The notes under the pieces were generated by a model that searched no databases, was not told the DNA's origin, and was given only the letters and a program-made list of their open reading frames with translations. Below, one piece after another: positions 49,862-52,893 of a DNA stretch of 64,000 nt. Position 1 is the first letter of the stretch. Every line of letters starts with the position of its first letter. Origin of the DNA: Motilibacter peucedani. Its GTDB lineage: Bacteria > Actinomycetota > Actinomycetes > Motilibacterales > Motilibacteraceae. A program made the translations under genes and the position numbers. Where the stretch lies: positions 124,001 to 188,000 of the forward strand of contig NZ_RBWV01000012.1 of assembly GCF_003634695.1 (NCBI RefSeq), read 5' to 3'.

Positions 49862-49867
49862 TAGAGT
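49862..49867 (+). promoter_or_regulatory. Candidate -10 element of the leuS leader
   Basis: TAGAGT followed by seven bases and the leader-peptide ATG at 49875, suggesting that translation starts at the mRNA 5' end. Confidence 0.5.
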
Positions 49868-49874
49868 CGTCCCC

Positions 49875-49910
49875 ATGAGCACCCGGCTCCTCCTCGTCGT
49901 GCCGCGCTGA
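49875..49910 (+). CDS. leuS leader peptide, 11 aa with three consecutive Leu codons
   Basis: The reading frame MSTRLLLVVPR ends 109 bases before leuS. Three CTC Leu codons (49887-49895) are followed by two Val codons. Such Leu runs sense charged tRNA-Leu in attenuation systems. No ribosome-binding site precedes the ATG, but a TAGAGT box seven bases upstream fits leaderless translation. The stop codon (49908-49910) lies directly before GGCTCG, the presumed antiterminator arm. Confidence 0.7.
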   Translation: MSTRLLLVVPR

Positions 49911-49973
49911 GGCTCGACGCACGACAGGCGAGAGCAGCGCGGCGAGCCCCTCGGTCCTCCGGGGGGCTCTCGC
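49911..49973 (+). promoter_or_regulatory. Attenuator-like alternative hairpins upstream of leuS
   Basis: Terminator candidate: 11-bp stem 49944-49954 with 49959-49969 (one G-U pair), 4-base loop. Antiterminator candidate: GGCTCG (49911-49916) pairs with CGAGCC (49943-49948), which would block the terminator's left arm. A further stem GCGAGAGC (49928-49935) with 49966-49973 also competes. A ribosome stalled at the Leu codons leaves 49911-49916 free; one at the stop codon covers it. No T-run follows the hairpin. Confidence 0.65.
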
Positions 49974-50019
49974 ATAGGGGGCCGGTGAGAGCGGACGACA
50001 CGGAGCGGCAGGCAGCGGG

Positions 50020-52893
50020 ATGACGGCGGAGACAGCGGCAGGCGCGGCAGCGGCACAGGCCCGGCCGGGTGCGCACGGTTCGGGCGCCGAGGGCGTCCCC
50101 GCCCACCGCTACACCGCGGCGGTGGCGACCGGCATCGAGGCCCGCTGGCAGGAGCGGTGGGCGCGGGAGGGCACCTTCGAGGCGCCCAACCCGGTCGGTG
50201 CCCTGGCCGGGGAGGTCGGCGACCGCCCGCGCCGGTTCGTGATGGACATGTTCCCCTACCCCTCGGGCTCGGGGCTCCACGTCGGCCACCCGCTGGGCTA
50301 CATCGCCACCGACGTCTACGGCCGCTTCTCGCGCATGGCGGGCTTCAACGTCCTGCACACCCTGGGCTACGACGCGTTCGGGCTGCCCGCCGAGCAGTAC
50401 GCCGTCCAGACCGGGCAGCACCCGCGCATCACGACCGAGCAGAACATCGCGACCATGCGCGAGCAGCTGCGCAAGCTGGGCCTGGCCCACGACCCGCGCC
50501 GCTCGATCTCCACCATCGATCCCGACTACTACCGCTGGACGCAGTGGATCTTCCTGCAGGTCTACGGCGCGTGGTTCGACGAGGTGGCGGGCAGGGCCCG
50601 CCCGATCACCGAGCTGGAGGCCGAGTACGCGTCCGGCGAGCGGCCGACCCCCACTGGTGCACCGTGGTCGTCGCTGTCGCCGGCCGAGCGGGCCGACCTG
50701 CTCGACGCGCGCCGGCTGGCCTACTCCGCCGAGGCGCCGGTCAACTGGTGCCCCGGCCTGGGCACGGTGCTGGCCAACGAGGAGGTCACCGCCGAGGGCC
50801 GCAGCGAGCGCGGCAACTTCCCCGTCTTCAAGCGCAACCTGCGCCAGTGGATGATGCGGATCACCGCCTACGCCGACGCCCTCGTCGACGACCTGGACCA
50901 GCTCGACTGGCCTGAGCCGGTCAAGCTCATGCAGCGCAACTGGATCGGGCGGTCGCGCGGTGCGCACGTCGACTTCGCGTTCTCGCCGTCGGTGTCCGTA
51001 CGCGTGTTCACCACCCGTCCCGACACGCTGTTCGGCGCCACCTACGTCGTGCTGGCGCCCGAGCACGAGCTCGTGGGTGCGCTGACCGCCGCCGAGTGGC
51101 CTGCAGAGGTCGACCCGCGGTGGACCGGCGGTGCCGCGACGCCGGCGGAGGCGGTGGCCGCGTACCAAGCCCGTGCCGCCGCCGAGACCGAGGAGGAGCG
51201 CACCTCCGAGGCCCGCGAGAAGACCGGTGTCTTCACCGGCTCCTACGTCACCAACCCGCTCTCCGGCGCGCAGCTGCCGGTCTTCATCGCCGACTACGTG
51301 CTGGCCGGCTACGGCACCGGCGCGATCATGGCCGTGCCCGCCGAGGACCAGCGCGACTGGGACTTCGCCGCCGTCTTCGGCCTGCCGCACGTGCGCACGG
51401 TGCAGCCGCCCGAGGGCTGGGAGGGCGGGGCCTACACCGGCGAGGGCGAGACCATCCACTCCGGCTTCCTCGACGGGCTGTCGCGGACGGAGGCCAAGGC
51501 CGCGGCCATCGCGAGGCTCGAGGAGCTGGGCGCCGGGCAGGGCACCACCACCTACAAGCTGCGCGACTGGCTGTTTAGCCGCCAGCGCTACTGGGGCGAG
51601 CCGTTCCCCGTCGTCTACGACGAGGACGGCCGCGTCGTGCCGCTGCCCGAGTCGATGCTGCCCGTCACGCTGCCCGAGGTCTCGGACTACTCGCCCCGCA
51701 CCTACGCCCCCGACGACGCGCAGAGCTCTCCGGAGGCGCCGCTCGGCCGCAACCGGGAGTGGGTCGAGGTCGTGCTCGACCTCGGTGACGGGCCGAAGAC
51801 CTACCGCCGCGACACCAACACGATGCCCAACTGGGCAGGCTCGTGCTGGTACCACCTGCGCTACATCGACCCCCTCGACTCGGAGCGGCTGGTCGAGCCC
51901 GAGAACGAGAGGTACTGGATGGGCCCTGCGGGGTCCGACAGCGTGGGCGGCGTCGACCTCTACGTCGGCGGCGTCGAGCACGCCGTGCTCCACCTGCTCT
52001 ACAGCAGGTTCTGGCACAAGGTTCTGCACGACCTGGGCCACGTGTCGAGCTCCGAGCCTTACCACAAGCTCTTCAACCAGGGCTACATCCAGGCCTACGC
52101 CTACACCGACTCGCGCGGCGTCTACGTGCCCGCGGCCGAGGTCGAGGAGGTCGACGGCGGCTACGTGCACGACGGCCAGCCGGTCACCCGCGAGTACGGC
52201 AAGATGGGCAAGTCGCTGAAGAACAGCGTCACGCCCGACGAGATGGCGGCCGACTACGGCGCCGACACGCTGCGCCTCTACGAGATGGGCATGGGCCCGC
52301 TCGAGGTGTCGCGGCCGTGGGAGACGCGGGCGGTCGTCGGCTCCTTCCGCTTCCTGCAGCGGCTGTGGCGCGTCGTGGTCGACGAGGAGACCGGCGAGAC
52401 CGTCGTCTCCGACGAGGCCGCGCCCGACGACCTGCGGCGCGTGCTGCACCGCACGATCGACGGCGTGCGCGCCGACTACGAAGGCCTGCGCTTCAACACC
52501 GCCGGCGCCAAGCTCATCGAGCTCAACAACGCCATCACCAAGCGCGGCGGCTCCGCGCCGCGGGAGGTGGTCGAGCCGCTCGTGCTCATGCTGGCCCCGC
52601 TCGCGCCGCACATCGCCGAGGAGCTGTGGTCGCGGCTGGGGCACACCGAGACGCTGGCCTACGCGCCGTTCCCCGTCGCCGACCCGGCCTACCTGGTCGA
52701 GGACACCGTCACCTGCGTCGTGCAGGTGGGCGGCAAGGTCCGCGACCGGCTCGAGGTGTCGCCGTCGGTGTCCGACGACGAGCTCCGCGCGCTGGCCCTG
52801 GCGGCCGAGGGCGCGCGCCGGGCGCTGGGCGACCGCGGCGTACGCACCGTCATCGTGCGCGCGCCGAAGCTCGTCAACATCGTGCCCGCCTGA
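50020..52893 (+). CDS. leuS: Leucyl-tRNA synthetase
   Basis: The 957-residue class I synthetase charges tRNA-Leu. It has the HIGH motif as HVGH (residues 87-90), a CP1 editing domain (about 250-500, with the Thr-rich [14 protein letters not shown] and DxxD-type region near [12 protein letters not shown]), and KMGKS at 728-732. The anticodon-binding domain follows and the C-terminal domain ends in the family's [12 protein letters not shown]. An N-terminal extension of about 30 residues is Ala-rich. The ATG at 50020 lacks a strong ribosome-binding site. Expression is probably controlled by the leader region upstream. Confidence 0.97.

Follow-up and report, generated by a model that had tools for sequence, protein, structure and literature searches.

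T-boxes control aminoacyl-tRNA synthetase genes by tRNA charging; the element preceding leuS that is described here has no Rfam T-box match, none having been found up to E = 1 or 0.5, and Rfam searches of the leuS upstream region returned nothing relevant. Its closest described counterparts come from Streptomyces. Attenuators of leuS were predicted in S. avermitilis and S. coelicolor (Seliverstov et al. 2005, PMC1262725), and that report presents a leader open reading frame (ORF) with Leu codons, followed by antiterminator and terminator hairpins before leuS, in candidates that are confined to Streptomyces and termed classical. In S. lividans, the leader leuL2, which encodes MRAVRLLLSEPR and ends in a stop codon, is leaderless according to RNA-seq with a measured transcription start site, and a hairpin with a U-run lies before leuS (PMC8079986).

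Other actinobacterial leaders resemble the leuS element in part. The LEU element of leuA also contains a Leu-rich leader ORF, whereas it forms a pseudoknot with the Shine-Dalgarno box and has no terminator (PMC1262725). The leaders of ilvB (S. lividans ilvL and others) share with the leuS element an arm at the stop codon that pairs with an arm abutting the terminator, but they carry Ile, Val and Leu codons, have other sequences and precede ilvB; no antiterminator was reported for them in 2005 (PMC1262725).

In this work, we characterized the region upstream of leuS in a window of 64,000 nucleotides of Motilibacter peucedani DNA, i.e., the whole stretch that was analysed, together with its counterparts in other actinobacteria. 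In contrast to the Streptomyces candidates, the window's terminator lacks a poly-U run; relative to leuL2-leuS, a U-poor tail replaces the U-run, the peptide is MSTRLLLVVPR, and the organism belongs to a different order. The leuS attenuator is not new in kind, and the window holds a diverged member of the kind described in Streptomyces.

Leader ORF and promoter upstream of leuS

All features given here lie on the forward (+) strand. A -10 promoter hexamer, TAGAGT (49862..49867), was read directly 7 nt 5' of the ATG of an 11-codon leader ORF (49875..49910; ATG at 49875, TGA at 49908-49910), which encodes MSTRLLLVVPR and includes the adjacent Leu codons CTC CTC CTC (49887-49895). Downstream lies leuS (50020..52893), encoding a leucyl-tRNA synthetase of 957 aa; this identity is backed by Streptomyces orthologues whose leader exactly matches S. 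lividans leuL2. Judging from the sequence, TAGAGT at this spacing implies a putatively leaderless leader transcript in this genome. Consensus promoter and terminator scans of the leuS upstream region gave no match, which is not surprising given the GC-rich actinobacterial sequence and the U-poor tail. When both strands were scanned, a leaderless LLL mini-ORF occurred once in the 64 kb, and 20 equally long Markov sequences contained none; thus, the leader ORF is more than a chance occurrence.

The preliminary description of this locus had reported the 11-codon frame with its three adjacent Leu codons, a GGCTCG hexamer touching the leader stop codon (49911..49916) and an 11-bp hairpin upstream of leuS (49944-49969), all of which are present. 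Its proposal that the leader ORF is leaderless gains support from the position of TAGAGT and from the leaderless S. lividans leuL2 counterpart.

Conservation and covariation

The leuS upstream regions of 217 class genomes plus named loci were oriented and scanned, giving a set of 143 regions. Under a strict search, requiring TANNNT 5-8 nt before the start of a leader with LLL, a leaderless Leu-run leader was found in 71 of these 143 regions, with a -10 spacing almost always of 6-7 nt within the range searched. Most leaders read M..(R/G)LLL..PR-stop, with LLLxxPR-stop being kept in most relatives, and the Streptomyces loci encode MRAVRLLLSEPR, identical to the published LeuL2.

Two helices accompany the leader. 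Arm A (GCCGCGCTG, 49901..49909) overlaps the final two sense codons together with the stop, and it covaries with arm C (CAGCGCGGC, 49935..49943), which in the window is its exact complement and whose last base touches the stem of the terminator hairpin T (49944..49969). The latter consists of 11 bp and a 4-nt loop, with arms GAGCCCCUCGG and CCGGGGGGCUC and the tail UCGCAUAG. Among the loci, arm A is near-invariant (CCGCGCTGA). The pairing of A with C was obtained from RNAalifold, which returned A:C and T on alignment A1 with no structure supplied, and from pair counts, which gave compensatory changes both on A1 and on alignment A2 (95 sequences, model-fitted with a fit that favours structure, so that A1 is the cleaner test). 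On A2, 6 of the 11 A:C pairs have changes on both sides and 97.4% of the cells pair over both helices, compared with 58.6% or less in slid controls. For percentage paired as well as for covariation score, the structure ranks above every shuffle and every slid control in both alignments. The fifth A:C pair is either C-G or U-A, and a larger compensatory change, CCGCACCGG with CCGGTGCGG, is found in L175 and L176. A covariation scan of all column pairs is led by the A:C and T pairs and revealed no second helix beyond these, only scattered single pairs. Two candidate interactions showed no covariation on inspection by eye and were rejected: contact between the terminator loop and arm A, as a pseudoknot or a kissing interaction, and a pairing of the Leu codons with the right arm of the terminator.

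The spacing of these parts is unevenly constrained among the 95 loci: arms A and C are separated by a loop of 7 to 53 nt, whereas the junction that connects C with the CCCC core of T measures 1-4 nt in all 95 and 2-3 nt in 93 of them, its nucleotides being mostly absorbed into T. In loci with an earlier stop codon (L102, L165, L019), arm A still lies at the same distance from the Leu codons. In 90/95 loci, the 8 nt following the stem core include at least 4 U. In many loci, the terminator U-run is directly followed by a tail close to YTTTTTCATGTCCGG, which is conserved across families and absent from the window's family. One leader, VASQQQRLIGPR followed by a stop (L152, G069), contains just one Leu codon, which follows a run of Gln, and keeps arms A, C and T.

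Taken as a whole, the Leu leader peptide with an attenuator-like element before leuS, claimed in the preliminary description, holds, being conserved with compensatory changes and having published Streptomyces counterparts. The alignment of upstream regions that it had proposed as a check recovered the conserved Leu codons and the compensatory changes, the latter in A:C, but the GGCTCG loop was not conserved.

Distribution across actinobacteria

The covariance model R1 matched 184 of the 394 class genomes that were sampled, covering 78 of 137 genera. In this genome it gave a single strong match (E = 3e-8; next match, E = 1.7), and all of the matches that were checked (20/20) precede leuS. The proteins encoded behind the checked matches are of two LeuS types, 60-68% and ~40-45% identical to the window LeuS. 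Two genomes (L169, G212; L170, G188) have two leuS genes each, and in both the ~40-45% identical copy carries the leader; hence, the element accompanies leuS in both of these divergent LeuS types. In the phylum sample, R1 matched 5 genomes of other classes. One locus of another class (L189) has the match before leuS, with the leader MAAALLLSPPR and a stop, and 4 of the 5 out-of-class matches are from one family (f49), the gene-linked one (G538) preceding ilvB, not leuS.

Chance similarity without function, in favour of which only the small size of the ORF can be named, is already refuted by the strength of the match in its own genome, the class-wide conservation and the compensatory changes, and its probability is negligible.

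Presence, loss and decay within the family

Within the family, the window and two genomes of another genus carry the element. Comparison of the window with these two genomes delimits conserved islands, namely the -10 and ATG, the Leu codons with arm A, and arm C with T, between and after which the sequence diverges; the left and right arms of T are identical in two other family genomes. Of the 8 nt that follow the core of T in the window, only 2 are U, as in two relatives, and in this family an extended stem takes the place of the U-run.

A genome of the same genus (G001, L005) lacks the element. Its leuS itself appears to be leaderless, judging from a TAGGCT hexamer just before the leuS ATG, and a -10 directly before the ATG of leuS was also observed in several other lineages without the element. 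In another genome of the family (G004, L012), a decayed leader, VRAAPHPCPRREAPR, ends in APR and a stop and contains no Leu codons; it keeps the -10 box and CCGCGCTGA, and arm C is lost. The element is therefore dispensable, being absent from one genome of the genus and reduced to a Leu-free remnant elsewhere in the family. Compared with the Streptomyces leuL2 element, the window has the Leu run before leuS, a putatively leaderless -10, the PR-stop/pre-terminator helix and the terminator hairpin, but no U-run, and it is thus a diverged homologue rather than a typical member.

Helix coexistence and ribosome position

In the window, the folding energies are -17.8 kcal/mol for A:C and -24.5 kcal/mol for T, and those of A:C plus T are additive (-42.3 kcal/mol). 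The two helices have no common base and are both predicted to form together, so they are not mutually exclusive by base pairing. The mutually exclusive hairpins of the preliminary description were accordingly not recovered, nor was its antiterminator arm after the stop codon, the conserved arm lying inside the ORF, at the last codons and the stop. As in trp-type attenuators, the leader contains many codons that specify the regulated amino acid; the strand that antiterminator and terminator share in such attenuators is lacking in the window element.

Folding was repeated with a ribosome mask of textbook dimensions, covering about 14 nt behind the P site and 15 nt ahead of it. In every locus computed, A:C formed with the first Leu codon in the A site, was partly lost at the last Leu codon and had disappeared once the stop codon was reached, and T was predicted in nearly all ribosome states, with few exceptions. 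By base pairing, therefore, the ribosome controls A:C and not T. If the element works by ribosome-mediated attenuation, antitermination must then arise by interference at the base of the terminator, since base-pairing exclusion is lacking.

Proposed mechanism and alternative explanations

Ribosome-mediated attenuation is likely for this element, and we consider that the 5' region of leuS is probably a ribosome-mediated transcription attenuator with steric antitermination. Transcription would start at or next to the leader ATG, and a ribosome would load on the 5' end of the transcript. With charged leucyl-tRNA being scarce, the ribosome would stall on the Leu codons and leave arm A free for arm C; the A:C helix (9-11 bp), flush against T, would keep the lower T stem open in the RNA polymerase exit channel, and leuS would be transcribed. 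With leucyl-tRNA being plentiful, the ribosome at the stop codon would cover arm A, and arm C would stay single-stranded, letting T close and transcription stop, with termination presumably occurring at a U-poor hairpin. The anatomy of the element fits a predicted response of leuS to the leucyl-tRNA level, and an antitermination by obstruction of the exit channel has been described for the P7 protein, which plugs it (PMC6624301). Against this mechanism stand the prediction of T in nearly every ribosome state, where classical exclusion is absent and the antitermination step is one that we infer, and the U-poor tail, which weakens intrinsic termination in the window's family and suggests that termination there may be weak or factor-dependent. 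The dispensability of the element, seen from its loss and decay in other genomes of the family, also counts against it. In addition, S. coelicolor ilvB, with the same layout, was reported to be unaffected by codon replacement, as cited in PMC1262725.

The ilvB leader of this genome (VQTRLLVVRQRAS and a stop; L196, G000:C14) has the same layout as the leuS leader, and in the ilvB leaders L197, L198, L199 and L194 an arm at the last codons or the stop likewise pairs with an arm abutting a U-run terminator. Of the ilvB leaders with a terminator, 15/19 hold a helix of at least 5 bp whose 3' arm ends within -2 to +4 nt of T, a count that is suggestive only, given that the search is crude, is restricted to that junction range and uses a search window truncating many A arms.

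Other readings of the locus were weighed against steric attenuation. In the classical scheme advanced in the preliminary description, the post-stop GGCTCG would pair with the left arm of the terminator and thereby exclude it. The 6-nt complement, GGCTCG:CGAGCC, does exist in the sequence, but a complement of this kind arises in 12.7% of shuffled loops; the pairing amounts to -8.4 kcal/mol vs -24.5 kcal/mol for the hairpin T that it would have to disrupt, and forcing it moves the best fold from -58.9 to -39.7, at a cost of ~19 kcal/mol. Moreover, the GGCTCG stretch is gapped and divergent between the window and two family relatives, and the pairing is conserved neither in the family nor in the class. 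We thus rejected GGCTCG:CGAGCC as a switch, the hexamer being most likely a chance complement, and the classical scheme is very improbable.

The coexistence of A:C and T in folds would also suit a role of A:C as a pause hairpin synchronising RNA polymerase and ribosome, in which readthrough would be set by coupling and not by blocking of the terminator. Classical attenuators are known to include pause hairpins, which speaks for such a role; nevertheless, pausing alone would yield no antitermination on leucine shortage, and the consensus G ten bases before the conserved loop UG, present in many loci, is absent in several lineages, making this explanation rather improbable. The element could also be a relic in this family, its U-poor hairpin no longer terminating, or could act via Rho or via leuS translation. 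The tail with 2 U among the 8 nt that follow the stem core, the replacement of the U-run by an extended stem, and the loss and decay seen in the same-genus and same-family genomes point in that direction, but the leader, arms A and C and the hairpin persist as conserved islands relative to the two genomes of another genus, and we regard a relic as unlikely.

Previously, leuS attenuation consisted of a prediction for a few Streptomyces and one RNA-seq annotation, and we found no wider description of the leuS leader element in the open-access literature. The element now proves to be class-wide and is supported by covariation; it gave no match in Rfam and precedes two divergent LeuS types. Its layout of non-overlapping helices may be new. 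It is conceivable, and we propose it tentatively, that leuS and ilvB have in common an actinobacterial variant of attenuation, where the antiterminator abuts the terminator without a shared strand and blocks its closure in the exit channel; for layouts of this kind, the S. coelicolor ilvB result warns against assuming simple codon sensing. The conservation of abutment, rather than overlap, raises the question of how, in these bacteria, a ribosome stalled on the leader keeps transcription from terminating.
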